Shown here one piece after another: positions 1,590 to 24,124 of a stretch of 64,000 nucleotides of DNA. Source of the stretch: Caulobacter sp. S45. GTDB taxonomy: Bacteria > Pseudomonadota > Alphaproteobacteria > Caulobacterales > Caulobacteraceae. Position 1 is the stretch's first letter. Every line of letters begins with the position of its first letter. The stretch lies in contig NZ_LMUL01000014.1 of assembly GCF_009765965.1 (NCBI RefSeq), positions 2,147,884 through 2,211,883 of the forward strand, read 5' to 3'. Made by a program: the position numbers and the translations under genes. Under the pieces are notes generated by a model. It did no database searches. It was not told the DNA's origin and was given only the letters and a program-made list of their open reading frames with translations.

Positions 1590-2882
1590 TCACGCGGGAA
1601 GCTCCTTCACCACCAGCGCCCGTCGCGCCTGCGGCCCGCAGAGCGCGAAGGCCGACACGACGGCGAAGGCTACGGCTGGGGCCAGCATGGCGATGCTGAT
1701 GGAACTGAGGTCGGAGATCCGGCCCATGATCGCAGGGACGACCGCCCCGCCGACGATGGCCATGACCAGAAAGCTGGAGCCCAGCTTGGTCGATCCGCCC
1801 AGCCCCGAGATCGCGCCGGCGAAGATGGTCGGATACATGATCGACATGAAGAAGCTGGCGGCGACCAGAGCGTAGAGTCCCGTCGGGCCGCCGACCAGGG
1901 CGGCGATCAGGCAGAGCCCGACATCGACGCCGGCGAAGATGGCCAGCAACCGGCTCGCCTTGATCCGCCCCATCAAGGCCGAGCCCGCGAACCGCCCCGC
2001 CATGAACAGCACCAGCGAAACGGTGAGATAGCCCGCCGCCGCCCGGTCGTCGGACAGGGGCAGGGCGTGGCGGGCGTAGCGGATCAGGAAGCTCCACACC
2101 CCGACCTGGGCGCCGACGTAGCAGAACTGCGCCATCACCCCGAACAGGAACGGCGCCCGGCTCGCCAGCGCCCGGACGTCGGCGAGCCGCAGGCTGCGCT
2201 GCGCTCCGATCCCAGGCGCGCTGGCCTGGGCCGGGAAACGGACCACGGCCACCACCACCGCCCAGGTCAGGACCAGCAGGCCGAGGATGATGTAGGGCGG
2301 CTCCACCGCGTGGGCCTGGGCGATGCGGAAGCGCTCTAGGTCGTGCGGGGCCATGGCGGCCAGCGCGTTCGGCGCCGGATCGAGGCGGGACAGGATGAAG
2401 GTGCGTCCGACCAGCACCCCGGCGATGGAGCCCAGGGGGTTGAAGGCCTGGGCCAGGTTCAGCCGCCGCTCGGCGCCCTCGGACGGGCCCAGCACGGTCA
2501 TCAGCGGGTTGGCCGCGGTTTCCAGGAAGGCCAGGCCGCTGGCGATCACGAACAGGGCCGCGAGGAAGAAGGCGTAGGTGCGGGCCTCGGCCGCCGGGTA
2601 GAACAGCAGCGCCCCGCACCCGTAGAGCGCCAACCCCAGGATCACCGCCGCCTTATAGCCAAATCGCTGTGCGAAGGCCGCCGCCGGCAGGGCGAAGGCG
2701 AAGTAGCCGAGGTAGAAGGCCGACTGCACCAGGCCCGACTGTAGGTCGGTCAGGGAGAACGCCTTGCGGAAGTGGGCGACCAGGACATCGTTGAGGTTGT
2801 TGGCCACGCCCCACAGGAAGAACAGGCTGACGATCAGGATCATCGCCGCCATCGCAGGTCGTTGCGGGCTCTGTGTCGGCAT
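1590..2882 (-). CDS. fucP: FucP-type L-fucose:H+ symporter (MFS)
   Basis: Twelve-helix MFS permease of the FHS family (about 430 aa). The start of helix 1 (FFLWGVANNLNDVLVAHFRK) and the stretch GLAFLETAANPLMTVLGP match FucP-type sugar permeases. Expected role is import of L-fucose across the inner membrane by proton symport. The reading frame is open to 2951, but ATG 2882 is preferred: GGGTGG precedes it and the upstream residues are not membrane-like. It is divergent from the alpha-L-fucosidase gene and upstream of the GH31 gene, which supports fucose as substrate. The same family also carries glucose or galactose, so specificity is inferred from context. Confidence 0.85.
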   Translation of the reverse strand: MPTQSPQRPAMAAMILIVSLFFLWGVANNLNDVLVAHFRKAFSLTDLQSGLVQSAFYLGYFAFALPAAAFAQRFGYKAAVILGLALYGCGALLFYPAAEARTYAFFLAALFVIASGLAFLETAANPLMTVLGPSEGAERRLNLAQAFNPLGSIAGVLVGRTFILSRLDPAPNALAAMAPHDLERFRIAQAHAVEPPYIILGLLVLTWAVVVAVVRFPAQASAPGIGAQRSLRLADVRALASRAPFLFGVMAQFCYVGAQVGVWSFLIRYARHALPLSDDRAAAGYLTVSLVLFMAGRFAGSALMGRIKASRLLAIFAGVDVGLCLIAALVGGPTGLYALVAASFFMSIMYPTIFAGAISGLGGSTKLGSSFLVMAIVGGAVVPAIMGRISDLSSISIAMLAPAVAFAVVSAFALCGPQARRALVVKELPA

Positions 2883-2921
2883 CGTCCACCCTGTTGTCCG
2901 GACTGTCGCCGGGCTTGCCTC

Positions 2922-2955
2922 TACGTGATCAAATATGAATACATACGTCAAATAT
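2922..2955. promoter_or_regulatory. AT-rich direct repeats between fucP and fucosidase
   Basis: The divergent promoter gap contains two copies of TCAAATAT, at 2929-2936 and 2948-2955, a 19-bp pitch, each near a copy of TACGT (2922-2926 and 2944-2948). The stretch is far richer in A+T than its surroundings. It may be the operator of the locus regulator (the IclR protein at 11007) and promoter for both genes. This is inference from position and repetition only. Confidence 0.4.
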
Positions 2956-2999
2956 AAAAACGAATGCGGCGACGTTCAGGCGATGCCGCAAGGGAGTTT

Positions 3000-4670
3000 A
3001 TGACGATGCAGCCGCTCTCTCGCCGTCAAGTCCTGCTTCGGAGCAGCGCGCTCGCCCTGTCCGCGTCCACGATGGCCGCGCCCGCGATATCGGCCGCCGC
3101 GTCGCCCAGCCAAGCCGGTGCGGGACCCTTCCAGCCGAACTGGGCGTCGCTGTGCGCGGGCTACAAGGCGCCTGACTGGTTCCGCGACGCCAAGTTCGGC
3201 ATCTGGGCGCACTGGAGCGCCCAGTGCGTGCCCGAGTTCGGCGACTGGTACGGCCGGCTGATGTATGTCCAGGGCGATCCCTTCTACGAACATCACGTCA
3301 AGACCTACGGTCATCCGAGCCGGTTCGGGTTCATGGAGATCGAGAACCTCTGGAAGACCGAGAATTGGCGGCCGGAAGAGCTGATGGACCTCTATGTGCG
3401 GGCCGGCGCCAAGTATTTCGTCGCCCTCGCCAATCACCACGACAACCTGGACACCTTCGACTCCGCCCACCACGCCTGGAACACCCTGCGGGTCGGGCCG
3501 AAGAAGGACATCATCGGCACGTGGGAGAAGATCGCCCGGGGCCGGGGCCTCCGGTTCGGCGTCAGCAACCATTCCGCCCATGCCTGGCACTGGTGGCAGA
3601 CCGCCTACGGTTACGACGCCGAGGGGCCGCTCGCCGGCGTCCGCTACGACGCCTACCGCCTGACCAAGGCGGACGGCGTCGGCAAGTGGTGGGAGGGGCT
3701 GGACCCGCAGGAGCTCTACACCGGCCGTCACATGGTCATCCCCGACGGGGTCAAGACCACCAAGGACGCCAACGCCTGGCACGCCGCCCACGACGGCGCC
3801 TGGTGGGAGACGCCGCCGACCGACGATCCCGGCTATGCGCGCCAGTGGCTCGCCCGCTGCAACGACCTGGTCGACAAGTACCGCCCGGATTTCATCTATT
3901 TCGACGACACCGAGCTGCCGCTGGGGCAGGCGGGCCTCGATGCGGTGGCCCACTTCTACAATAGCGACATCGCCCGCAACGGGTCGCTGCAGGCCGTCGC
4001 CACGGGGAAAAAGCTGCAGCTCGCCCACCGTGGCGGCGTGGTCGAGGACTTCGAGCGCGGCTTCAGCGACGTCATCCGCCCGGACCCCTGGCAGACCTGC
4101 ACCTGCATCGGCCAGTGGCACTACGACCGGGCCCTGTTCGAGCGGCACGGCTACAAGACCGTGCCGACCGTGGTGCGGATGCTGTGCGACATCGTCAGCA
4201 AGAACGGCAACCTGCTGCTCAGCATCCCGCTCAAGGGCGACGGGACTATCGACAGCGACGAGCACGCCTTCCTGACCGGCCTCGCCGCGTGGATGGAGGT
4301 GAATGGCGAGGCGATCTATGGGACGCGCCCGTGGAGGGTCTATGGCGAGGGCCCGACCCAGGTGCAGACGGGCATGTTCGTCGAGCAGAGCGCCAAGCCC
4401 TACACGGCCGAGGACGTTCGCTACACCACCCGGGACGGACAGCTCTACGCCCTGATGATGGCGCGGCCCGAGGGCGATGTCGTTCGGCTGAAGTCGCTCG
4501 CCGTGGCGGGCGCCGATGCGCCTCGTGTCGGCAAGGTGGAGCTTCTGGGCGCTTCGGGACCCCTGCAATTTTCCCAGACCGGCGAGGGTCTCGCCGTGCA
4601 TCTGCCGGCTGGCGAGCGCCTCTCCGAAGTGTATGCGCTTCGTATCGGCGGGGTGGGGCTGACGGCCTGA
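3000..4670 (+). CDS. alpha-L-fucosidase, GH29, Tat-type leader
   Basis: A 556-aa GH29 protein. The N-terminus MTMQPLSRRQVLLRSSALAL is a twin-arginine style leader, so the enzyme is probably exported folded to the periplasm. DAKFGIWAHWSAQCVPEFGDWYG and the histidine-rich ALANHHDNLDTFDS segment are typical of the fucosidase barrel. IYFDDTELP supplies the likely nucleophile (Asp302 or Asp303), and NGNLLLSIPLKGDG closes the barrel as in family members. A C-terminal beta-sandwich follows. ATG 3000 follows AAGGGAG closely; ATG 3006 is an alternative with more normal spacing. It is expected to remove terminal L-fucose from side chains such as those of fucosylated xyloglucan. Confidence 0.88.
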   Translation: MTMQPLSRRQVLLRSSALALSASTMAAPAISAAASPSQAGAGPFQPNWASLCAGYKAPDWFRDAKFGIWAHWSAQCVPEFGDWYGRLMYVQGDPFYEHHVKTYGHPSRFGFMEIENLWKTENWRPEELMDLYVRAGAKYFVALANHHDNLDTFDSAHHAWNTLRVGPKKDIIGTWEKIARGRGLRFGVSNHSAHAWHWWQTAYGYDAEGPLAGVRYDAYRLTKADGVGKWWEGLDPQELYTGRHMVIPDGVKTTKDANAWHAAHDGAWWETPPTDDPGYARQWLARCNDLVDKYRPDFIYFDDTELPLGQAGLDAVAHFYNSDIARNGSLQAVATGKKLQLAHRGGVVEDFERGFSDVIRPDPWQTCTCIGQWHYDRALFERHGYKTVPTVVRMLCDIVSKNGNLLLSIPLKGDGTIDSDEHAFLTGLAAWMEVNGEAIYGTRPWRVYGEGPTQVQTGMFVEQSAKPYTAEDVRYTTRDGQLYALMMARPEGDVVRLKSLAVAGADAPRVGKVELLGASGPLQFSQTGEGLAVHLPAGERLSEVYALRIGGVGLTA

Positions 4671-4829: not shown

Positions 4830-7628
4830 ATGTCTCGTCACGCTCTATACCGGCTCGCCTTGCTGGGCGCGTCGGCGCTCTCGACCTGTGCTTTCGTGCA
4901 GGCGGCGCCGGCCTTCGCCCAGGACTCCATGCCGGCCAACACCGGCGCCCCTGTCCCGGTCGCGGCGCAGAACGATCAGGCGACCACCGCCCCGGCGGCG
5001 GGCGCCGGCAGCGTCGGCGAAGTGGTGGTGACGGGCGTTCGCGCCAGCATCATCTCGGCCACCGCCATCAAGCGCAACGCCGACGAGATCGTCGACTCCA
5101 TCGTCGCCCAGGACATCGGCAAGCTGCCTGACAACAACGTCGCCGAGGCGCTGCAGCGGATTTCCGGCATCCAGATCACCCGCAACTACGGCGAAGGCTC
5201 CGGCGTCGCCATTCGCGGCTTGACCCAGGTGCAGACCGAGCTGGACGGGCGCGACAGCTTCTCGGCCAATGGGGGCTTCGCCGGCGGCGCCACGAACGGC
5301 CGCGGTCTGAGCTTGGAAGACGTGCCCTCGGAATTGTTGGCCGGTATCGACGTCTACAAGGACCCATCGGCCGAGCAGATCGAAGGCGGCATCGGCGGCG
5401 TCATCAATCTGCGCACGCGCATGCCGTTCGACTTCAAAGGCGCCAAGATCGCCGCCAGCGTCGGCGGCTCCTATGACGACCTTGCCGACGCCGGTCGACC
5501 CAACGCCTCGCTGCTGCTGAGCGATCGCTGGGACACCTCCATCGGCGAGATCGGCATCCTTGCCGACGCCTCCTTCACCCAGACGCGGTTCCGCGAGGAT
5601 CAGCAATCGCAGGAGCCCTTCTACGCGAGCACCATCCCCCTTCCGGGACATGCCGTCGGCACGGTCAATATCCCCGATGGCATGGGCATCGACGAGACCC
5701 AGGGCAGCCGCCAGCGGGAGGGCTTGTCCCTCGCCCTGCAATGGCGTCCGACGTCGAACCTCGAACTCTACACGCAAGTCAACCGCATCGATTATTACTT
5801 CAAGTGGGACGATGCGGCGAACTATGTCGGCGCCTCCGCTCCCGGCACGATCGACGCGTCCCAGCCCTTTACGGTCGGCCCGTCAGGCGATCTGCTCACT
5901 GGCTCTTATTCGGGTTCGTCGATCAACTTCAACAGAAGCTTGACCGATCAGCACACGGTTACGACCAACTATGCGATCGGCGGTAAGTGGACGCCGACCG
6001 ATCGATTGACCGTATCGGCCGACGTTCAGTACATCTATTCGACTAATAAGGACCAACGCTTCATTATCGGTGAAAACTCGGCGGGCGTGCTGCCTGTGGT
6101 GAATTTCAACATCAGCAAGCCGCTCGCCAGCATCGTTGTGCCGACCGGGTATCTCACGAACCCCGCCAATTTCGCGATCGGCTATACGCTGGATCATTAC
6201 GACAACGACTCAGGCACCGAGAAGGCCGTCCGTACGGATTTGGAATACCGTGTGTCTGACGAGGGTTTCCTCCGCAAGTTGAAGTTCGGCTTCCGTTTCA
6301 CGGACCGCGGCGCCATTACGGGGTCGACGCCCTACAACTTTGACGGTGTGCCTGCCGGCCTCCCGGCTAGCGATTACGGCGTCTATAATTACAACAACCT
6401 GTTTGACGGCAGAAGCACGCTGTTCGGCCCGACGATTTCGCCGGCGAGTTCCTTGCTCAACAATATCAAGAATACGTTGAATGCCTTTGGCTCTCAGCCG
6501 GTAGCCTTCAATCCGAGCGACTTCGCCAGCGAGGAGGAACACACCTACGCAGTCTATTTCGTGGGTGACTACGGCTTCAAGTTGGGACCGTTCCCAGTTG
6601 ACGGGAATGTCGGTGTGCGGGTTGTCAATACCCAGGAAAACACCAGCGGCTTCAACTCTCTCACGCCACTGGTCCCGGCGCCTGCCGGAACCCCGCCAAA
6701 CGCAGATGGCACCGCGCCCACCGTTACCGGGGCGCCGAGCTATGCCGCTGTCAATGTAAAGCAGAACTATACCGACGCCTTGCCGAGCTTCAACGCGCGG
6801 GTTCACCTGACCGACGATCTGCAGCTTCGCCTGGCCGCCTCGAAGGGTCTGACCCGGCCGGACTTCAGCCAACTGAATCCGAACGCCCAGATCAGTCAGC
6901 CAAGCCAAACCACGCTCAACGCCAACACGCCCCTGACCGCGGGAACCTTCGGCAGCGCCTCCTTGAAGCCATACCGGACGAACAACTACGACGTTTCGTT
7001 GGAATGGTACTTCAACAAGACCGGTTCGCTGTATGGCGCGGCGTTCTACAAACAGGTTAAGGGCTTTATCGCCACCGAAGTCGATAACGAGATCTATTAC
7101 AACGACACCTTCCAGGTTACCCGCTACTACAACCAGGGCGACGGCACCATCAAGGGCGCCGAAGTCGGCTATACCCAGTTCTTCGACTTCCTGCCCAAAC
7201 CCCTCGATGGCTTCGGCGTAACCGCCAACTACACCTATGTGGATAGCGCAACGCCCAGTCCGACCGCTTCGGACACGAACGGCACGCCTCTGACCGTTCC
7301 GCTGCAGGGCCTGTCGAAGAACAGCTACAACCTGATCGGCATGTACGAGAAGGGGCCGATCCAGATGCGTATCGCCTACAACTGGCGCGACAAGTACGTT
7401 CTCACGACGGCGGGCAACGGCACCGGCGCCCTGCCGGTCTATGTCGAGCCCTACGGTCAGCTGGACGGCTCAATCTCCTACAACGTGACGTCGCATGCCG
7501 TGCTGCAGTTCGAGGTGCGCAACATCCTGAACTCCGAGCAGGATCAGGACTACGGGCTGGTCACGCGGCCCGAAAACGCCCTCATAAACGACCGCCAGTA
7601 CATGGCGGTGCTCCGCGTCAGCTATTGA
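4830..7628 (+). CDS. TonB-dependent receptor for oligosaccharides
   Basis: A 932-aa outer-membrane receptor. A signal peptide (cut near APAFAQ) is followed by the plug start VGEVVVTGVRAS and the stretch IGKLPDNNVAEALQRISGIQ, highly characteristic of Caulobacter- and Xanthomonas-type carbohydrate receptors. The barrel ends in RQYMAVLRVSY with the usual terminal aromatic residue. It should import oligosaccharides across the outer membrane using TonB-ExbBD energy. AAGGGGAAG gives a strong ribosome site before ATG 4830. The next gene starts 28 bp downstream, so the receptor probably heads an operon with the esterase, GH35, lactonase and IclR genes. Substrate, xyloglucan oligosaccharide, is inferred from neighbours. 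Confidence 0.92.
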   Translation: MSRHALYRLALLGASALSTCAFVQAAPAFAQDSMPANTGAPVPVAAQNDQATTAPAAGAGSVGEVVVTGVRASIISATAIKRNADEIVDSIVAQDIGKLPDNNVAEALQRISGIQITRNYGEGSGVAIRGLTQVQTELDGRDSFSANGGFAGGATNGRGLSLEDVPSELLAGIDVYKDPSAEQIEGGIGGVINLRTRMPFDFKGAKIAASVGGSYDDLADAGRPNASLLLSDRWDTSIGEIGILADASFTQTRFREDQQSQEPFYASTIPLPGHAVGTVNIPDGMGIDETQGSRQREGLSLALQWRPTSNLELYTQVNRIDYYFKWDDAANYVGASAPGTIDASQPFTVGPSGDLLTGSYSGSSINFNRSLTDQHTVTTNYAIGGKWTPTDRLTVSADVQYIYSTNKDQRFIIGENSAGVLPVVNFNISKPLASIVVPTGYLTNPANFAIGYTLDHYDNDSGTEKAVRTDLEYRVSDEGFLRKLKFGFRFTDRGAITGSTPYNFDGVPAGLPASDYGVYNYNNLFDGRSTLFGPTISPASSLLNNIKNTLNAFGSQPVAFNPSDFASEEEHTYAVYFVGDYGFKLGPFPVDGNVGVRVVNTQENTSGFNSLTPLVPAPAGTPPNADGTAPTVTGAPSYAAVNVKQNYTDALPSFNARVHLTDDLQLRLAASKGLTRPDFSQLNPNAQISQPSQTTLNANTPLTAGTFGSASLKPYRTNNYDVSLEWYFNKTGSLYGAAFYKQVKGFIATEVDNEIYYNDTFQVTRYYNQGDGTIKGAEVGYTQFFDFLPKPLDGFGVTANYTYVDSATPSPTASDTNGTPLTVPLQGLSKNSYNLIGMYEKGPIQMRIAYNWRDKYVLTTAGNGTGALPVYVEPYGQLDGSISYNVTSHAVLQFEVRNILNSEQDQDYGLVTRPENALINDRQYMAVLRVSY

Positions 7629-10107: not shown

Positions 10108-10953
10108 ATGTCCGAAGCCCCGCCTGAGCCGATCATCGATGCGCACCAGCACTTCTGGCGCATAGGCGAACACGACTGCGTCTGGCCCCATTCCGGCTTG
10201 CGGGACATCCATCGCGATTTCGAGGCCGTAGAGCTAAAGACTCTGGCCGGGGCGGTGGGCGTACGGGGATCGGTGCTGGTGCAATCCCAGCCCAGCGACC
10301 GCGACACGGACTACCTGCTGGCGTTGGCGGCCGAGGAGCCTTTCGTGCAGGCGGTGGTCGGGTGGGTCGATCTGGCGTCGCCGACTGCGCCGGCGCGCAT
10401 CGCCGAACTCGCCAGCCATCCGAAGTTCAGGGGCGTGCGGCCCATGCTGCAGGCCTTGGCGCAGGACAGCTGGATTCTCGATCCGAGCTTGCAGCCCGCC
10501 CTCTCGGCCATGGTCGAGCATGGGTTGAGCTTCGACGCCCTGGTGCAGCCCCGCCATCTGCCCCACCTGCTGGCCTTCGCCGAGCGCCACCCCGAACTGC
10601 CGATGGTGATCGACCATGCCGCCAAGCCGGCGATCGGGCGGGGCGAGATCGCCGGCTGGCGTGAGGGGCTGCAGTCCCTGGCCGCCTTGCCTCACGTCCA
10701 CTGCAAGCTGTCCGGCCTGCTGACGGAATGTGCGCCGGGGCAGGGGGTGGAGCATCTGCGGCCGTATGTGGATCATCTGCTGGAGATGTTCGGCTGCGAA
10801 CGTCTGATGTGGGGAAGCGACTGGCCGGTGCTGAACCTGTCGGGCGACTACGCCGGCTGGCTCGCCATGGCGCAGGACTTGGTTCGCGGTTCGGGCGATA
10901 AGGCTGTGGCGTGGGTGTTCGCGCGGTCTGCACGCGGCTTCTATCGGTTCTGA
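10108..10953 (+). CDS. amidohydrolase-2 family, probable L-fuconolactonase
   Basis: A 281-aa metal-dependent hydrolase of the COG3618 type. IIDAHQHFW at the N-terminus holds the H-x-H metal ligands, IDHAAKP the third histidine region, and MWGSDWPV near the C-terminus the catalytic Asp. Members hydrolyse sugar lactones such as L-fucono-1,5-lactone or L-rhamnono-lactone in the cytoplasm. Placement between GH35 and IclR genes and close to the dehydrogenase and dehydratase supports L-fuconolactone as substrate. It starts 20 bp after the GH35 stop, with no separate promoter apparent. Confidence 0.85.
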   Translation: MSEAPPEPIIDAHQHFWRIGEHDCVWPHSGLRDIHRDFEAVELKTLAGAVGVRGSVLVQSQPSDRDTDYLLALAAEEPFVQAVVGWVDLASPTAPARIAELASHPKFRGVRPMLQALAQDSWILDPSLQPALSAMVEHGLSFDALVQPRHLPHLLAFAERHPELPMVIDHAAKPAIGRGEIAGWREGLQSLAALPHVHCKLSGLLTECAPGQGVEHLRPYVDHLLEMFGCERLMWGSDWPVLNLSGDYAGWLAMAQDLVRGSGDKAVAWVFARSARGFYRF

Positions 10954-11006
10954 CTTGCCGGCCCGATATATTCTCTTCCAGTCTGGTCCGATCCGTTGAG
11001 GCCCTT

Positions 11007-11819
11007 ATGCCTACAGAGATGCAGAACGCCGTGACCGCAGCGCCCGCCGTCGCCGACCTCGCCGACGCCGAGCGCCGCTATCGCGCCCCGGCGCTGGAGA
11101 AGGGGCTCGATATCCTCGAGCTGCTGGCCAGCAACGACCAGCCGATGACCGCCTCCCATATCTCCACGGCGCTCGACCGCTCCATGAGCGAGCTGTTCCG
11201 CATGATCCAGGTGCTGGAATACAAGGGCTACATCGTCCTGCGCAGTTCCGGCGAGGGCTACGAACTCAGCAACAAGCTGTTCACCCTGGGCATGTCCCGC
11301 GCGCCGGTGCGCAATCTGCTGGAGGCGGCCCTGCCGGTGATGCGGGACCTGTCGGACGCGACCGGCCAGTCCTGCCACATCGCGGTCGCCTCGGAGACCC
11401 AGATGGTGGTGATCGCCCGGATCGAGAACCCCGGCTATCTCGGCTTCTCCGTCCGGCCCGGCTATCGGCGCCAGCTCAACGAAGCTAGCTCGGGCGTGAC
11501 CCTGTTCGCCTTCCAGCCCGAGGCGGTGCGCCAGGCCTGGGCGGCGCGGTTCGCCCTGACCGTCGGCAAGGCCGCCATGAAGACCTTCCTGGCGCGTGCC
11601 GATGCGACGCGGGCGCGGGGCTACGAGCGCGCCGCCAGCGACTTCGTCCCGGGCGTGACCGACATCTCCACCCCGGTGATCTCCAACGAGGCGGCGGTGG
11701 CGGCGCTTACCATGCCCTACCTCAACAGCAGCGCGGCGCCGACCGACCTGGATCAGGCCATCACGGCGCTGCGGGCCGCGGCCGAGCGCATCGCCGAGGA
11801 CCTTGTCGCCACCTTGTGA
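11007..11819 (+). CDS. IclR-family transcriptional regulator, probable locus regulator
   Basis: A 270-aa regulator. The N-terminal winged helix (ALEKGLDILELLASNDQPMTASHISTAL... MSELFRMIQVLE) is followed by an IclR effector domain (PVMRDLSDATGQSCHIAV ... FSVRPGYRRQLNEASSGVTLFAF). Start ATG 11007 follows GAGG. Sitting between the hydrolase genes and the fucose oxidation genes, it is the only transcription factor in the locus and so the best candidate for its control, with fucose or a fucose oxidation product as effector. The Campylobacter jejuni fucose locus also carries an IclR regulator, which supports this by analogy. Confidence 0.88.
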   Translation: MPTEMQNAVTAAPAVADLADAERRYRAPALEKGLDILELLASNDQPMTASHISTALDRSMSELFRMIQVLEYKGYIVLRSSGEGYELSNKLFTLGMSRAPVRNLLEAALPVMRDLSDATGQSCHIAVASETQMVVIARIENPGYLGFSVRPGYRRQLNEASSGVTLFAFQPEAVRQAWAARFALTVGKAAMKTFLARADATRARGYERAASDFVPGVTDISTPVISNEAAVAALTMPYLNSSAAPTDLDQAITALRAAAERIAEDLVATL

Positions 11820-11868: not shown

Positions 11869-11894
11869 TTTCACTTGCGCAATGACTTTCACTT
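11869..11894. promoter_or_regulatory. direct TTTCACTT repeats upstream of dehydrogenase gene
   Basis: TTTCACTT occurs twice, at 11869-11876 and 11887-11894, spaced by 18 bp, in an AT-rich pocket just before the aldo/keto reductase gene. The complementary strand reads AAGTGAAA, close to half-sites in the palindromes at 4712 and 17296. A regulator site or promoter is likely for the oxidation operon. The repeat region overlaps an in-frame ATG at 11882, one reason to prefer the later start. Confidence 0.38.
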
Positions 11895-11917
11895 ATAAAG
11901 CGGATAGGCTGCGCTTT

Positions 11918-13240
11918 ATGGATTTGCGGTTGACGGTGGGTGGCGCGCGCGTGGCGTATCCGGCGCTCGGTTTCGGGGCGGCGGCGATCGGCAATCTCTA
12001 TCGGCCCATCTCCGACGCGGAAGCGTCCGAGGCCGTCCGCGTCGCCCTGGCCGAGGGCGTGACCTATTTCGACACCGCACCGCATTACGGCTTTGGCCTG
12101 AGCGAGACGCGGTTGGGCGCGGCGCTGGCGCAATTCGATCCCGAGCAGCGCGCCCTGGTGTCCACCAAGGTCGGGCGGCGGCTGGAGCCGATCGCCGAGG
12201 GCGCCGGTGCGGGCAGCCGGCACGGCTTCGTCGATGCGGCGCCGTTCGAGCCGGTGTTCGACTACAGTTACGACGCGGTGATGCGATCCTATGTGGATAG
12301 CCGCCGCCGGTTGAGGCGGGACCGCATCGACATCCTGCTGGCCCACGACCTTGGCCGCCTCGTCCACGGTGACGCCCATCCCGAACGGTTCCACCAGTTC
12401 ATGACCGGCGGCTATCGGGCGTTGCAGGAGCTGCGCGACAGCGGCGCTGTCGGGGCGATCGGCCTGGGCGTCAACGAGTGGCGGGTCTGCGAAGAGGCGC
12501 TGGCCGTGGGCGATTTCGACGTCTTCCTGTTGGCAGGGCGCTACACCCTGCTCGAACAGGCGGCCCTGGACAGCTTCCTGCCGCTGTGCGCGGCGAGGGG
12601 CGTGTCGGTGATCGTCGGCGGCCCGTTCAATTCCGGCGTCCTGGCCCAGGGCGGGGCTGCGCCTGGTCCGTTGCGCTACGATTACGAAACGCCGCCGGAC
12701 ACGGTGATGGCGCGGGTGGCGCGGCTTCGGGCGGTGTGCGAGCGGTTCGGCGTTCCGCTGGCGGCGGCGGCGCTCCAGTTTCCCCTGGCCCATCCGCAGG
12801 TCTGCAGTGTCATTCCAGGGTTGGCGGACCCGCAGGAAGTCACCGACGCCGTCCGCCTCATGCGCACCCCGCTTCCTGAGGCGCTCTGGCGGACTCTGCG
12901 CGAAGAAGGGTTGCTGCATCCCGAGGCGCCCACGCCCATGGCGCCCGCCTCGCCTTTCCTGCTGCTGCACGAGGACGACAACGTGCTGGTCGTACGTGCG
13001 TCGGTGCGCCGGGGCGATCTCATTGTCATCGAGGGCCGTCCGACTACGGCCACGGCCGATGTCGAGGTCGGCCACAAGCTCGCGCGTCGCCCCCTGCAGG
13101 CCGGCGACAAGGTCTATAAGTACGGCGTCCCGATCGGGTCCATGCGCGTGCGGGCCGAGGCGGGGGAGCACCTCCATATGCACAACATGCGCAGCGACTA
13201 CATCTCCGGTCATACGCGTGACGGTGTGGCGGCGGATTGA
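11918..13240 (+). CDS. aldo/keto reductase (L-fucose dehydrogenase type) fused to SAF/UxaA small-subunit domain
   Basis: A 440-aa two-domain protein. Residues 1 to about 335 form an aldo/keto reductase: LGFGAAAIGNLY, catalytic Asp52 and Tyr57 in FDTAPHYGFGLSETR, Lys in VSTKVGR and His in LLAHDLG. It resembles NAD(P)-dependent L-fucose or D-threo-aldose 1-dehydrogenases. Residues about 341-440 match the altronate dehydratase small subunit (SAF domain): EDDNVLVV, GHKLARRPLQAGDKVYKYG, and GEHLHMHNMRSDY. The catalytic large subunit is the next gene, 4 bp downstream. An in-frame ATG at 12938, preceded by GAGG, could give a free 100-aa SAF subunit. ATG 11918 is preferred over 11882, which lies in the promoter-like repeats; neither has a strong ribosome site. 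Confidence 0.85.
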   Translation: MDLRLTVGGARVAYPALGFGAAAIGNLYRPISDAEASEAVRVALAEGVTYFDTAPHYGFGLSETRLGAALAQFDPEQRALVSTKVGRRLEPIAEGAGAGSRHGFVDAAPFEPVFDYSYDAVMRSYVDSRRRLRRDRIDILLAHDLGRLVHGDAHPERFHQFMTGGYRALQELRDSGAVGAIGLGVNEWRVCEEALAVGDFDVFLLAGRYTLLEQAALDSFLPLCAARGVSVIVGGPFNSGVLAQGGAAPGPLRYDYETPPDTVMARVARLRAVCERFGVPLAAAALQFPLAHPQVCSVIPGLADPQEVTDAVRLMRTPLPEALWRTLREEGLLHPEAPTPMAPASPFLLLHEDDNVLVVRASVRRGDLIVIEGRPTTATADVEVGHKLARRPLQAGDKVYKYGVPIGSMRVRAEAGEHLHMHNMRSDYISGHTRDGVAAD

Positions 13241-13244
13241 GACG

Positions 13245-14474
13245 ATGACCGACACCTTTCGAGGCTATCTGCGCGCCGACGGCCGCAAGGGCGTGCGCAA
13301 CGTGGTGACGGTGGTCTATCTGGTGGAGTGCGCCCACCACGTGGCCCGCCATATCGCCACCCGCAGCGACGATCCAGACGTCCACCTGATCGGCTTTCCC
13401 GGCTGCTATCCCAACGCCTATGCGCTCAAGGTGATGGAGGCGGTCTGCACCCACCCCAATGTCGGCGGCGTGCTGCTGGTGTCGCTGGGCTGCGAGGGCT
13501 TCAATCGCGAACAGCTCCAGGCGGCTATCGTCGCCAGCGGACGCCCGGTCGAGCTGCTGGTGATCCAGGAGGCGGGCGGTACGCGCGCCACCATCGCCGC
13601 CGGCCTGCAAGCCGTGGACCGGCTGAAGGCCTTGGCCGCTAAGACGCCCGTCGGGCCGATGCGCCTGGACGAACTGGTGATCGGCACCATCTGCGGCGGC
13701 TCCGACGGCACCAGCGGCATCACCGCCAACCCCGCCGTGGGCCGCTGCTTCGACCAACTGGTGGCGGCGGGCGCGACCTGCATCTTCGAGGAGACGGGCG
13801 AGCTGATCGGTTGCGAAGGGGTGATGGCGGACCGCGCGATCACGCCCGAGCTGGGCATGGAGATCCGCGCCAGCGTGGCCAAGGCCGAACGCTACTACAC
13901 CACCATGGGCTTCGGCAGTTTCGCCCCTGGCAACGCGGAGGGCGGGCTGACCACCCAGGAGGAGAAGTCGATGGGCGCCTACTCCAAGTCCGGCGCCTCG
14001 CCGATCAGTGGGGTGATCAAGCCCGGCGACCTGCCGCCGGCGGGCGGGCTGTACCTGCTCGACATGATCCCCGACGGGGAGGTGCGATACGGCTTCCCCA
14101 ACATCTCCGACAACGCCGAGATTGTGGAGCTGATCGCCTGCGGGGCGCACATCAACCTGTTCACCACCGGGCGCGGCTCGGTGGTGGGGTCGGCCATCTC
14201 GCCGGTGATCAAGGTCTGCGCCAACCCCGAGACCTATCGCCGGCTGGAAGGCGACATGGACGTGGACGCGGGCCGCATCCTGGACGGCGTGGCGAGCCTG
14301 GACGAGGTGGGCCAGGAGATCCTGGACCGGGTGGTGGCCGTGGCGTCTGGCCAACGCACCTGCTCCGAAGAGCTTGGCCACCAGGAGTTCATCCTGACCT
14401 ACAAGGCGTTCGAGCCCAGCGGGCCCGCTTGCCTGCCGCTCAGCCAGGTGGCGTTCCGGCTGGCTGTGGTCTGA
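13245..14474 (+). CDS. UxaA-family dehydratase large subunit, probable L-fuconate dehydratase
   Basis: A 409-aa homologue of the C-terminal catalytic part of altronate dehydratase UxaA. Family stretches are FRGYLRADGRKGVRN, LIGFPGCYPNAYA, LVSLGCEGFN, IGTICGGSDGTSGITANPAVG and FTTGRGSVVG. Cysteines and acidic residues suitable for a metal site are present. It lacks its own SAF domain, which is supplied by the end of the preceding gene. Expected reaction is L-fuconate to 2-keto-3-deoxy-L-fuconate. C. jejuni uses a split UxaA pair in its fucose locus, a precedent for this role. Altronate or galactarate remain alternatives on sequence alone. Confidence 0.85.
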   Translation: MTDTFRGYLRADGRKGVRNVVTVVYLVECAHHVARHIATRSDDPDVHLIGFPGCYPNAYALKVMEAVCTHPNVGGVLLVSLGCEGFNREQLQAAIVASGRPVELLVIQEAGGTRATIAAGLQAVDRLKALAAKTPVGPMRLDELVIGTICGGSDGTSGITANPAVGRCFDQLVAAGATCIFEETGELIGCEGVMADRAITPELGMEIRASVAKAERYYTTMGFGSFAPGNAEGGLTTQEEKSMGAYSKSGASPISGVIKPGDLPPAGGLYLLDMIPDGEVRYGFPNISDNAEIVELIACGAHINLFTTGRGSVVGSAISPVIKVCANPETYRRLEGDMDVDAGRILDGVASLDEVGQEILDRVVAVASGQRTCSEELGHQEFILTYKAFEPSGPACLPLSQVAFRLAVV

Positions 14475-14481
14475 GGCGGCG

Positions 14482-14826
14482 ATGGCGCGCCGTTGCCTGA
14501 TCCTCGACCTGAAGGACGATCCCGAGCTGATCGCCCGCTACAAGCAATGGCACACGCCGGGACGCACCCCGCCGGCGGTGATCGCAGCCATCCGCGCCGC
14601 CGGCGTCGAGGCGATGGAAATCTACCTTTCCGGCGATCGGCTGGTCATGATCATGGAGACCGGACCCGAAGCGTCGGACGACGTTCGCGCCGACGCCAGC
14701 CCCGATCCCGAGTTGCGGGCGTGGGAACAGCTCATGGACGCCTTCCAGAAGCCGGTTCCCTGGGCGACGCCCGGGGAGAAGTGGACGCCAACGGAGCTGA
14801 TCTTCGACCTCGACGCCCACGGCTGA
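14482..14826 (+). CDS. RhaM/DUF718-type sugar mutarotase, probable L-fucose mutarotase
   Basis: A 114-aa small alpha/beta protein of the L-rhamnose mutarotase family (COG3254). LDLKDDPELIARYKQWH, a central AMEIYLSGDRLVMIMET strand pair and the ending WTPTELIFDLD are typical. These enzymes interconvert alpha and beta anomers of 6-deoxy-L-sugars so that a dehydrogenase receives the right form. It starts 7 bp after the dehydratase and is the last gene of the run. A family member also sits in the C. jejuni fucose locus, so fucose is the preferred substrate guess over rhamnose. Confidence 0.82.
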   Translation: MARRCLILDLKDDPELIARYKQWHTPGRTPPAVIAAIRAAGVEAMEIYLSGDRLVMIMETGPEASDDVRADASPDPELRAWEQLMDAFQKPVPWATPGEKWTPTELIFDLDAHG

Positions 14827-17339: not shown

Positions 17340-18068
17340 TCAGGCGGCGTCGTGGAAGATAACGCCCAAGATGTGTCTTTGTCCCGATCGGACGCGGCTG
17401 ACCCCATGGCGCAGGTTGACCCGGTAGTCGCCGCGAGCGCCCTGCACCGGCCGACTATTGACCGCGAACACGACCGCATCGCCCTTGCTCAGCGGCACGA
17501 CCGCCGCCCGTGTCTGCATACGGGGCCGTTGTTCGGTCAGGACGAATTCGCCGCCATCGAAGTCCTCGCCGGGCTCCGACAGCAGGACGGCGATCTGCAG
17601 CGGGAAGACGTGTTCGCCGTACAGGTCCTGGTGCAGGCAATTATAGTCCCCGGGCCCGTATTGGAGCAGCAGGGGCGTCGGACGCACTTGGCCGGCGCGA
17701 TGGCACCGCTCCAGGAAGGTGGCGTGATCGTCGGGGAACCGGACCTCCATCCCCATCCGCGCGTGCCAGCGATTGGCCAACGGGGCGAGGTGGGGGTAGA
17801 GCGTGGTCCGAAGCGCCTGTACGAGCGGCGGCAGCGAGTAGCTGAAGTAGCGATATTCGCCACGGCCGTATCCATGGCGGGCCATGACCACCTGGCTGCG
17901 GAAGCCATCGCTCCGACCATACAGGTCGGCGACGGCCCCGCATTCCGCCCCGGTCAGGAGCTTCGGCAGCACCGTCCAGCCCTGGGCGTCCAGGTCCGCC
18001 GAAACGCGCGGCCAGTCGATCGCGGCGGCCCGCTCGTCCGAGCGGCGGTTCAAGTCGACGCCGCTCAC
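17340..18068 (-). CDS. 2OG-Fe(II) oxygenase coupled to alkyltransferase gene
   Basis: A 242-aa protein starting at GTG 18068, which overlaps the ogt stop (GTGA, 18065-18068); the frame is open further upstream only as a shadow of ogt. NCLHQDLYG carries the His-x-Asp iron pair. The distal His and 2-oxoglutarate-binding Arg are probably in LRHGVSRVRSGQR. The fold type is that of COG3826-like dioxygenases rather than classical AlkB, whose signature residues are not seen. Close coupling to ogt and the facing ada gene suggest a role in the alkylation damage response, perhaps on nucleic acid or protein. Substrate unknown. Confidence 0.75.
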   Translation of the reverse strand: MSGVDLNRRSDERAAAIDWPRVSADLDAQGWTVLPKLLTGAECGAVADLYGRSDGFRSQVVMARHGYGRGEYRYFSYSLPPLVQALRTTLYPHLAPLANRWHARMGMEVRFPDDHATFLERCHRAGQVRPTPLLLQYGPGDYNCLHQDLYGEHVFPLQIAVLLSEPGEDFDGGEFVLTEQRPRMQTRAAVVPLSKGDAVVFAVNSRPVQGARGDYRVNLRHGVSRVRSGQRHILGVIFHDAA

Positions 18069-18589
18069 GCCACGCCCTCCATGTTGATCAGGCGGCGCTT
18101 GCGCTGCACGCCCCAGCGATATCCGGAGATCGAGCCGTCCGCCTTGACGACGCGGTGGCAGGGGATGGCCACCGCCAGCACATTGGCGGCGCAGGCCGCG
18201 CCCACCTCCTGGGCGGTGGCCGCCATCGGCAGGGTTTTGGCGAGGGCGCCATAGGTGCGGGTCTCGCCCGACGGGATGGCGCGCAGGGCCTCCCAGACCG
18301 CCAGTTCCAGGGCCGATCCGCGCAGGTCGAGCGGCAGGTTCGATCCCAGCTGCGGCGCGTCGACCAGGGCGACCACCTCGGCGACCGTGCCGCCAAGGGC
18401 GGCTTGGTCTTCGGCCACGCATGCTGTCGGAAAGGCTTCGACCAGCTCGCGGCGGAGCCTCGCACGGTCGTCGCCCAGGAAGATCGCCGCGACGCCGTGA
18501 TCGCTCCGGGCGACAAGGGCCGTTCCGATCCTGGTCTCACCGTAGCCGAAGCGAAGCGTGTCGGCGGCGGCGGTCGGCATCGCGCTCAT
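18065..18589 (-). CDS. ogt: methylated-DNA-protein-cysteine methyltransferase (Ogt type)
   Basis: A 174-aa alkyltransferase. The active-site motif PCHRV holds the acceptor Cys144, followed by the SGYRWGVQRKRRLI segment. It transfers methyl groups from O6-methylguanine to itself in a suicide reaction. ATG 18589 is preceded by GGAG; upstream open frame contains the inverted repeat and is not coding. The sequence is clearly related to the C-terminal domain of Ada encoded on the other side of the gap (for example AVAIPCHRVV in both), so the pair probably arose by duplication. It is translationally coupled to the downstream oxygenase. Confidence 0.9.
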   Translation of the reverse strand: MSAMPTAAADTLRFGYGETRIGTALVARSDHGVAAIFLGDDRARLRRELVEAFPTACVAEDQAALGGTVAEVVALVDAPQLGSNLPLDLRGSALELAVWEALRAIPSGETRTYGALAKTLPMAATAQEVGAACAANVLAVAIPCHRVVKADGSISGYRWGVQRKRRLINMEGVA

Positions 18590-18644
18590 GGCGGGGAACT
18601 CCGTTTGCTGTTGGTCCGGCAAGGTCCCATCCCGGCGGCGACGC

Positions 18645-18761
18645 CACACTCCGGCGCTTGCTTTCAAATCCGAGATTGTCTCGGCAGGGCGGAGCAGCGG
18701 TACGGCGCATAACTCCGCGGCAGCCACCATATTCCGATTTGAAAGCAAGCGCCGGAGTGTG
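18645..18761. promoter_or_regulatory. divergent ada/ogt control region with perfect 26-bp inverted repeat
   Basis: Arms at 18645-18670 and 18736-18761 are exact reverse complements over 26 bp and are separated by 65 bp. Each arm reads away from its gene as GAAAGCAAGCGCCGG or its complement. One arm lies 45 bp from the ada start, the other about 55 bp from the ogt start. The core AAAGCAAGCGC loosely recalls the AAAGCGCAA box of enterobacterial ada promoters. Two head-to-head binding sites for methylated Ada, one per divergent promoter, is the simplest reading. The gap between the arms would hold the promoters. Confidence 0.6.
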
Positions 18762-18806
18762 AGGCCGATCCCTACCCGGCAGGGTGGCGTCGGATGAATT
18801 CACAGG

Positions 18807-19913
<1,107 letters not shown>

Positions 19914-21272: not shown

Positions 21273-21355
21273 AGAACCCCTCTAGCGTTAACGGATCATC
21301 CACCGCGCCAACTTGGTTGCGGTGCGACGCCCCCTATCCGCGGAGTCCTTCCCCG

Positions 21356-24124
21356 ATGGCCAGCTTCAACGTCGCCTCCGGCGCCACCGACAAGATCGCC
21401 CAGACCGTCGGCGCCGACGACGGCGGCATGATCGAGGCCGGCGCCACGCTGTCGGCGACCACTGCGGTCACCTGGACCGGCGGCGACACCGACCCCGGCG
21501 TGGTGATCGACAACGACGGGACCATCAGCGCCAAGACGCGCGCGATCGACACCACGTCCAACTTCACGACCGGCTCCTTCACCCTAATCAACCAGGCGGA
21601 CGCCCAGATCCTCGCCGCCAACAACGACGCGGTCCGCATCGACGCCGCCCTCACCAGCGGTACGATCGACATCGACAACTACGGGCTGCTGGTCTCGGGC
21701 TCGGTGGATAAGAACGGGAACATCGTCGCCGGCGCCAGCGGCCAGGCGATCGACCTCGCCACCATCGTCTCGCCCGATGCGGTGGTGAATATCACCAACC
21801 ATGCCGGCGGCGTGATCGGGTCCAGCGGCGACGATGCGATCCGTCCCAGCGCCGGTCATGTCACCATCACCAACGACGGCCTGATCGACGCGACCGCCTC
21901 GGCCAACCGCGCGATCAACCTCAACACCGCCAGCCTCTCCGACATTTCCGAGTTCCATCTGATCAACGGCGTCGACGGGACCATCCAGTCGCAGGGCGAC
22001 GCGGTGCGTATCACCGCCACCACGCTCGACACCACCGCGACCGGCGTGTTCACCATCGACAACGCCGGCGTGATCAAGAGCACAGGCGTCGGCAGCGACA
22101 ACGGCCAGGCGATCGACTTCAACGACCTGGTCTCGCCGCTGGCCAAGTCCACCATCACCAACGAGGCGACAGGGCTGATCCAGGCCGCCGACGCCGATGC
22201 GATCCGCGGCGGCGTCAACACGACGATCATCAATCTCGGCAAGATCGTCTCGATGAACGGGACGCCCACCTCCTCGGGCAACGACGGGGTGGACTTCCAG
22301 GACAACGCCGGCGGGGTGATCCAGAACGGAAACGCCGACGACACCACGGCGTTGATCTCGGGCGCCCGTCATGGCGTGACCGGCAACGACCCGGTGACGA
22401 TCACCAACTGGGGCGAGATCCTCGGCAACTCCGGTTCGGGCGTGAACCTGGATACGGCCGGCACGACCACCACCCAGATCACCAACCACGGCTTGATCAT
22501 CGGCACCTCCGTCACCGCCGATGGCGACGGGGTGGACGTCGACGGCCTGATCGCGCTGAACAACTACGGATCGATCCAGGCGACCGGCGTGCATGTGGTC
22601 GATCCGGTCACCGGCGCGACCATCTTGCAGGAGGCGGTGACTGTCGGCGGCGGCGTCATCAACAACTTCCAGGGCGGGGTGATCACCAGCTTCGAGCGGG
22701 CGATCACCGTCGACAACAGCAACGACGGAAACGCCTTCGGCCCCACCACCATCCTGAACGAGGGCCTGATCCACGGCGGCGACGGCCAGGCGATCAGCAT
22801 CACCGACACCTTCGCCGACACCCTGACCAACAAGGGCGTGATCCAGGGTAGCATTGCGCTGGGCGCCGGCGACGATACGCTCAACCTGTTCGTCGGCTCG
22901 TCCATCACCGGCGTGACCGACGGCGGCGCCGGCATCGACACCGCCCACCTCTATGGCGAGGGCGCGTCCAACCTGTCGGCCCTGGTGAACTTCGAAGCGC
23001 TCGACGTGATCGGCGGCGTGTGGACGACCACCGCCGACGAGAGCTTCGCCAACGGCGTCTCCATCGATGCGGGCGCGAGCCTGGTCGTCGCCAGCGGCGC
23101 GCTCACCGCCAATGTGGCCGACAGCGGCGCGCTGCTGTTCGACCATGCCGACGACGTGACCTACTCCAGCGTCGTCTCGGGTCGGGGCTCGGTGACCCAG
23201 GAGGGCGCCGGCGTGCTGACCCTGTCGGGCGACAACAGCTATACCGGCGGGACCTCCATCGTTTCTGGCGTGCTCGACCTGGCGAGCGCCCAGGCGGCGG
23301 GTACGGGCGTGATCCGCTTCGAGGCGGGCGCGGGGACCCTGCGCATCGAGGCGGCGGCGTTCACCGACGGCCATCTGGCCAACACCATCACCGGGCTGGG
23401 TGCGCAAGATTCGATCGACCTCTCGGGCTTCACCTCGGCGACCAGCGCGACGCTGGGCGCGAACAACCTGCTGACCGTGCGCGACAACGCCGGCCACGTC
23501 GAAACCCTTCAACTCGACCCGTCGCAGAACTTCGCCGGCGATGTCTTCAAGGTGATGGCGGACGGATCGGGCGGCACGACCATCAGCTTCGCCCAGGCCC
23601 AGCAGGTCGGCTCCGGCTACACCATCGGCGCGGGGGGCGGCGAGGTGGTGGCCCTGCACGGGAACAACGCGCTGTTCGCGGGCGGCGCCGGCGCCGACTA
23701 CATCGTCATGGGCGACGGGACCGGCGGCAGCGCCAACGGCGGGGCCGGCAACGATGTGATCATCGCCGGCGCGGGCAAGGATGCGCTCACGGGCGGGACC
23801 GGCGCGGACACCCTGATCGGCGGCTCGGGTCTGGACACCTTCATCATCAACAAGGGCGATCTGGCCGACCCGACCACCGATGGCGGCCATTACGACACCA
23901 TCCTGGATTTCAAGGGCGCCGGCGTCCCCGGTCTCGGCGACATGATCCGCTTCCAGGGCTTCTCGAGCGCGGCGACCCTGACCCATGTCGGCGACGTGGC
24001 CGGCGCGCCCGACGAGCACATCTACCAGGTCGACGACGGCGCCTATCATGCGCAGCTGATCATCGAATACGCGGGTGGGGTTGGCTCCAACCTGAAGGTC
24101 GGGAACTACGGTTTCTTCGGCTGA
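21356..24124 (+). CDS. large secreted beta-helix/RTX calcium-binding protein
   Basis: A 922-aa repeat protein. Residues 1 to about 540 are imperfect repeats of the type ITNxGxI, predicted to form a beta-helix. Around 600-680 lies an autotransporter-associated strand repeat (GAGVLTLSGDNSYTGGTSIVSG). Near 770-840 come glycine-aspartate RTX repeats (GGAGNDVIIAGAGKDALTGG, GGTGADTLIGG). There is no signal peptide and no autotransporter barrel, so type I secretion by a C-terminal signal is expected; no type I exporter genes lie nearby. ATG 21356 has GGAG ten bases upstream. Role could be adhesion, surface layer or enzyme scaffold; none can be chosen from sequence. Confidence 0.8.
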   Translation: MASFNVASGATDKIAQTVGADDGGMIEAGATLSATTAVTWTGGDTDPGVVIDNDGTISAKTRAIDTTSNFTTGSFTLINQADAQILAANNDAVRIDAALTSGTIDIDNYGLLVSGSVDKNGNIVAGASGQAIDLATIVSPDAVVNITNHAGGVIGSSGDDAIRPSAGHVTITNDGLIDATASANRAINLNTASLSDISEFHLINGVDGTIQSQGDAVRITATTLDTTATGVFTIDNAGVIKSTGVGSDNGQAIDFNDLVSPLAKSTITNEATGLIQAADADAIRGGVNTTIINLGKIVSMNGTPTSSGNDGVDFQDNAGGVIQNGNADDTTALISGARHGVTGNDPVTITNWGEILGNSGSGVNLDTAGTTTTQITNHGLIIGTSVTADGDGVDVDGLIALNNYGSIQATGVHVVDPVTGATILQEAVTVGGGVINNFQGGVITSFERAITVDNSNDGNAFGPTTILNEGLIHGGDGQAISITDTFADTLTNKGVIQGSIALGAGDDTLNLFVGSSITGVTDGGAGIDTAHLYGEGASNLSALVNFEALDVIGGVWTTTADESFANGVSIDAGASLVVASGALTANVADSGALLFDHADDVTYSSVVSGRGSVTQEGAGVLTLSGDNSYTGGTSIVSGVLDLASAQAAGTGVIRFEAGAGTLRIEAAAFTDGHLANTITGLGAQDSIDLSGFTSATSATLGANNLLTVRDNAGHVETLQLDPSQNFAGDVFKVMADGSGGTTISFAQAQQVGSGYTIGAGGGEVVALHGNNALFAGGAGADYIVMGDGTGGSANGGAGNDVIIAGAGKDALTGGTGADTLIGGSGLDTFIINKGDLADPTTDGGHYDTILDFKGAGVPGLGDMIRFQGFSSAATLTHVGDVAGAPDEHIYQVDDGAYHAQLIIEYAGGVGSNLKVGNYGFFG

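Follow-up and report, generated by a model that had tools for sequence, protein, structure and literature searches.

An aldo/keto reductase of Caulobacter sp. S45 that carries the SAF domain absent from the adjacent UxaA-type dehydratase subunit

In the 64,000-nucleotide stretch of Caulobacter sp. S45 DNA analyzed here (the window), one gene encodes an aldo/keto reductase (AKR) that ends in the SAF domain of a UxaA-type dehydratase, and the next gene encodes a dehydratase large subunit from which exactly this domain is absent. We propose that the fused protein is an AKR-type L-fucose (or L-galactose/D-arabinose) 1-dehydrogenase carrying a trans-acting SAF of an L-fuconate-type dehydratase, that steps 1 and 3 of the pathway would thus be tethered, and that the fusion arose through an indel. 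We regard this reading as probable. The features of the locus are listed below.

11882–13240, forward strand: AKR–SAF fusion gene, a single open frame of 452 residues from ATG 11882 or 440 residues from ATG 11918
11966–12901, forward strand: AKR domain, residues 29–340 (Pfam, E 2.7e-42)
12902–12952, forward strand: junction, made up of the AKR C-terminal tail GLLHPEAPTP, a motif common to split AKRs, and a low-confidence linker (pLDDT <50 at residues 347–356)
12938–12940, forward strand: in-frame internal ATG, with GAGG at 12923–12926 and 11 nt between them
12953–13198, forward strand: SAF (beta-clip) domain, residues 358–439, which in a UxaA-type dehydratase forms the small-subunit domain
13245–14474, forward strand: UxaA/GarD-type dehydratase large subunit without SAF, 409 residues, starting 4 nt after the fusion gene; domains GD_AH_second and GD_AH_C

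The frame of the fusion gene is unbroken from either start codon to the TGA at 13238–13240; the ribosome site is better at ATG 11918, which is a likely alternative start. Both domains therefore lie in one open frame, as held by a preliminary description of this DNA, which had placed the enzymes of steps 1 and 3 on a shared polypeptide. The AKR domain is of the (beta/alpha)8 barrel type and matches PF00248, and its nearest solved structures, as found with Foldseek, are L-galactose dehydrogenases. Residues D64, Y69, K96, and H155 are invariant in 17 of 17 fused proteins. From general knowledge of the AKR family, we take these residues to be the catalytic Asp–Tyr–Lys–His tetrad, which is thus likely to be intact in the window protein.

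The C-terminal part of the protein (100 residues) aligns with the UxaA SAF structure 3k3s (“Altronate hydrolase”) over 82 residues without gaps (phmmer, E 1.2e-12). The Pfam SAF model did not reach a match in the window protein, but the fused homologue L002 passes the cutoff of this model. The SAF motifs DNV, GHK, KYGxPIG, HxHN, and SDYI are intact in the window protein, and the UxaA-type motifs are all kept in 17 of 17 fused proteins. An AlphaFold2 model, built on 17 sequences and with a mean pLDDT of 75, shows the barrel and a beta-rich C-terminal domain connected by the linker at residues 347–356, the low confidence of which matches what would be expected of a tether. Because the top matches in a fold search with this model were AKR structures only, the identity of the SAF domain rests on sequence.

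The large subunit matches GD_AH_second (E 1.4e-29) and GD_AH_C (E 2.9e-81) and no other Pfam domain, and it aligns with galactarate dehydratase (6u7l) at positions 122–514 only, that is, without the N-terminal SAF part. The preliminary description was thus correct, in domains and in coordinates, on the AKR with a C-terminal UxaA SAF and on the adjacent SAF-less large subunit (Pfam, 3k3s, and 6u7l). In this locus the SAF is found neither on the dehydratase's own chain nor as a free small subunit; it is on the AKR. The genome holds only one other SAF, which is 37% identical and stands beside its own UxaA paralogue (large subunit 35% identical); this second SAF/UxaA pair (G000:C9:1056414-1057896; L168, L170) consists of separate genes and is divergent from the pair at the fused locus. 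Since all motifs are kept and the only other SAF of the genome belongs to this divergent pair, the neighboring large subunit very probably obtains its missing domain in trans from the fused SAF.

The surroundings of the locus bear on the reaction that the fused protein may catalyze, and the relevant neighbors in the window are as follows.

1590–2951, reverse strand: FucP L-fucose:H+ symporter (TIGR00885, 416 bits; cutoff 280)
2964–4670, forward strand: alpha-L-fucosidase (PF01120)
4830–7628, forward strand: TonB-dependent receptor
10108–10953, forward strand: amidohydrolase, L-fucono-1,5-lactonase-like (201 bits, under the NCBIfam cutoff of 400)
10911–11819, forward strand: IclR-type regulator
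14482–14826, forward strand: mutarotase, rhaM family

Convergent genes for an FAH hydrolase and an SDR lie outside the window, 4–6 kb to its left (L198:1387-2979). Their products are 65–66% identical to the counterparts in the Caulobacter operon, and they likely complete the fucose pathway, the FAH hydrolase match being below the curated equivalog cutoff. In the Caulobacter operon these two genes are inside, whereas here they stand apart from the AKR–SAF operon. With them, all parts of the non-phosphorylating L-fucose route (route 3) are present, namely mutarotase, dehydrogenase, lactonase, dehydratase, SDR dehydrogenase, FAH hydrolase, and uptake; this route ends in pyruvate and lactate (PMC11199699). 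The gene context supports non-phosphorylating L-fucose oxidation, and the fucose setting originally suggested for the locus gains support from FucP, the alpha-L-fucosidase, the lactonase-like amidohydrolase, the mutarotase, and the nearby SDR and FAH hydrolase. Previous work has shown that in Paraburkholderia mimosarum an AKR-superfamily enzyme adjoining a UxaA-family dehydratase oxidizes D-arabinose, L-fucose, and L-galactose (PMC6336799). We infer from the neighboring genes that the sugar of the fused protein would be L-fucose (or L-galactose/D-arabinose), with NAD(P)+ as the presumed electron acceptor in L-fucose oxidation, and the assignment of the exact sugar stays at that level because the Paraburkholderia enzyme takes all three.

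Fused genes turned out to be a minority form of a common layout. In split relatives the genes for AKR, SAF, and UxaA are adjacent and in this order, and the start of the SAF gene mostly overlaps the AKR stop by 4 nt (ATGA or GTGA) in another frame. A plasmid of Sphingomonas parapaucimobilis carries such a split set, annotated in RefSeq, next to fucP; the RefSeq names for split copies are “aldo/keto reductase” and “UxaA family hydrolase.” Of 80 loci taken from named GTDB genomes, 15 carry the fusion and 31 the split genes; in the other 34 the reductase has no SAF next to it, in some cases because the contig ends there. The 15 fused loci belong to Sphingobium, Sphingomonas, Novosphingobium, and one MAG, and their junction differs from that in the window. 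Genomes of the same family contain the fusion in 2 of 390 cases, the window genome and G020, a member of another genus, in which the same fusion (L002; 65% identity) has no stop or frameshift. Taking both collections together, 17 of 77 SAF-bearing loci are fused and 60 are split, although the two collections may share some species. It had been argued that separate genes in all close homologues would speak against the fusion; most are indeed split, which shows the usual layout and leaves the fusion itself standing. One more fused copy is on a plasmid of Sphingobium sp. V4. At E 1e-60, no fusions beyond Caulobacteraceae and Sphingomonadales were found in a class sample (385 genomes) or a phylum sample (398 genomes). 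Plasmid matches in Azospirillum argentinense and Ensifer seemed to run past the AKR; the one in A. argentinense proved to be a plain AKR beside an opposite-strand LysR gene.

The three-gene layout with its ATGA overlap offers a simple starting point, in which a small indel at the overlap would fuse the AKR to the SAF. In the window protein, the AKR tail GLLHPEAPTP is kept, followed by read-through via the ATG into the SAF, and we infer that one base inserted into a CCATGA overlap, such as locus L051 has, would give this junction. The fusions of the Sphingomonadaceae have lost the tail and have a different linker, with a distance between landmarks down to 18 residues; among all fused proteins this distance ranges from 18 to 33 residues. 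In the AKR tree the fusions fall into two groups, so that two changes are needed, and a topology with a single change occurred in no bootstrap tree. Because of the tail loss, the linker difference, and the two-group tree, two separate fusion events are favored. They are not proven, since a single origin was not rejected in approximately unbiased (AU) tests, either with the AKR (p 0.088) or with AKR, SAF, and UxaA concatenated (p 0.38).

That two genes were joined by a sequencing or assembly error, for instance through a lost stop codon, was an obvious concern given that most relatives have two genes. In-frame fusions occur in independent genomes, however, and the junction shows no stop or frameshift; with the G020 fusion at 65% identity and the 15 loci of the Sphingomonadaceae type, an artifact can be set aside as extremely improbable. 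Another idea is that the SAF has given up its dehydratase role and now assists the AKR as an accessory domain, for example in oligomerization. This is very unlikely, considering the full retention of UxaA-type motifs in all fused proteins and the adjacent large subunit without SAF, for which a search of the genome gave no other suitable SAF. The same gene might instead yield both the fused AKR–SAF and a free SAF through initiation at the internal ATG 12938, a translational choice put forward in the preliminary description. The ATG and its GAGG are present as described, and an ATG ahead of the SAF is kept in several Sphingobium fusions, one of which, from Sphingobium sp. Leaf26 (L117:6900-7000), has an AAGGAG Shine–Dalgarno sequence before it. 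Against a regulated choice stand the ordinary Shine–Dalgarno energy at ATG 12938 (−5.9 kcal/mol; of 315 ordinary in-frame internal ATGs, 13% do as well or better) and the lack of conservation: fused G020 and Sphingomonas have no counterpart of this ATG, and the linker ahead of the SAF contains no start codon in G020, L068, L074, L081, L092, and L119, all of them fused relatives. ATG 12938 also looks as the relic of an old, separate SAF start codon would look, and may be just that. Hence, some species could initiate translation internally, but this is not a conserved feature, and we consider the production of two forms from the window gene unlikely.

More weight is due to the idea that the fusion is neutral, the SAF being equally functional fused or free and an indel at the stop/start overlap having removed the AKR stop and been tolerated. 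This would compete only with a benefit of coupling and would leave the role of the SAF as a trans-acting subunit unaffected. Split genes with ATGA overlaps are the usual arrangement, and a single indel suffices to fuse them; moreover, the fusion is rare in the family, another step separates steps 1 and 3, and the linker is variable in length. Conversely, a diverse clade of Sphingomonadaceae has stably kept the fusion, which probably has two origins. Weighing these points, we give neutrality a substantial chance, if somewhat short of even. In the reading that we prefer, the N-terminal half would act as the AKR-type 1-dehydrogenase of step 1 on L-fucose (or L-galactose/D-arabinose), and the C-terminal half as the SAF small subunit of the L-fuconate-type dehydratase of step 3, whose large subunit is encoded by the next gene. 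Docking of the SAF on the UxaA-type large subunit would complete the dehydratase and, by forming a dehydrogenase–dehydratase complex, would physically tether step 1 to step 3, with the ratio of the two fixed at translation. Because the lactonase step lies in between, such a tether need not mean direct channeling between the two enzymes. As for the effect of the fusion, our reading is open to fixed stoichiometry, co-translation, or simple neutrality. A bolder version, in which AKR and SAF were fused independently at least twice since tethering is advantageous, and in which the SAF, as a docking module, brings the first enzyme into an undescribed fucose-oxidation complex, is put forward tentatively and strikes us as rather doubtful.

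The components of the locus are all familiar. Split AKR/SAF/UxaA operons of Caulobacter, Brevundimonas, Cellvibrio, Nitrospirillum, and Sphingomonas parapaucimobilis have the same three components, order, and pathway neighbors, but as three genes, whereas here the first two are one gene. The AKR-type 1-dehydrogenases of Paraburkholderia (A19U_RS0129385), Pseudomonas (L-fucose dehydrogenase), and plants (L-galactose dehydrogenase) share the fold and likely the reaction; unlike the window protein, they have no reported C-terminal SAF. In the UxaA/GarD superfamily, which includes D-altronate, galactarate, and D-arabinonate dehydratases, SAF, second, and C-terminal domains likewise make up one enzyme (PF08666, PF04295, and PF20629), with the SAF usually at the N-terminus of the dehydratase chain and not, as here, on another enzyme. 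Sulfolactate sulfo-lyase, SuyAB, has SuyA as its SAF-bearing small subunit. SuyAB is a heteromeric member of the superfamily (PMC6336799), and split UxaA-family enzymes are thus known; its small subunit is a free protein and its reaction is different, whereas here the SAF is fused to an AKR. The fusion is a rearrangement of known parts, not a new kind of enzyme. A literature search of partial coverage yielded no description of an AKR carrying a SAF subunit, so the early impression of an undescribed build holds for publications; the build is not unique, given at least 17 fused loci, and the architecture is already in public genomes.

The locus shows the SAF subunit of the UxaA family to be a portable module, able to be attached to a different enzyme of its pathway. 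Matched split and fused operons would provide a comparison for the effect of fusing non-consecutive steps on flux or stoichiometry. There is also an annotation hazard in that a fused copy is easily named for its reductase half alone, upon which the dehydratase seems to be without a small subunit.

Elsewhere in the window, the translations of 18065–18748 and 18807–19913 resemble Ogt/Ada-type DNA methyltransferases and adjoin an Oxygenase-NA gene (17340–18422), so that 17340–19913 looks like an alkylation-repair cluster. Further on, at 21317–24124, a frame of 935 residues has weak matches to autotransporter repeats and RTX calcium-binding sequences.
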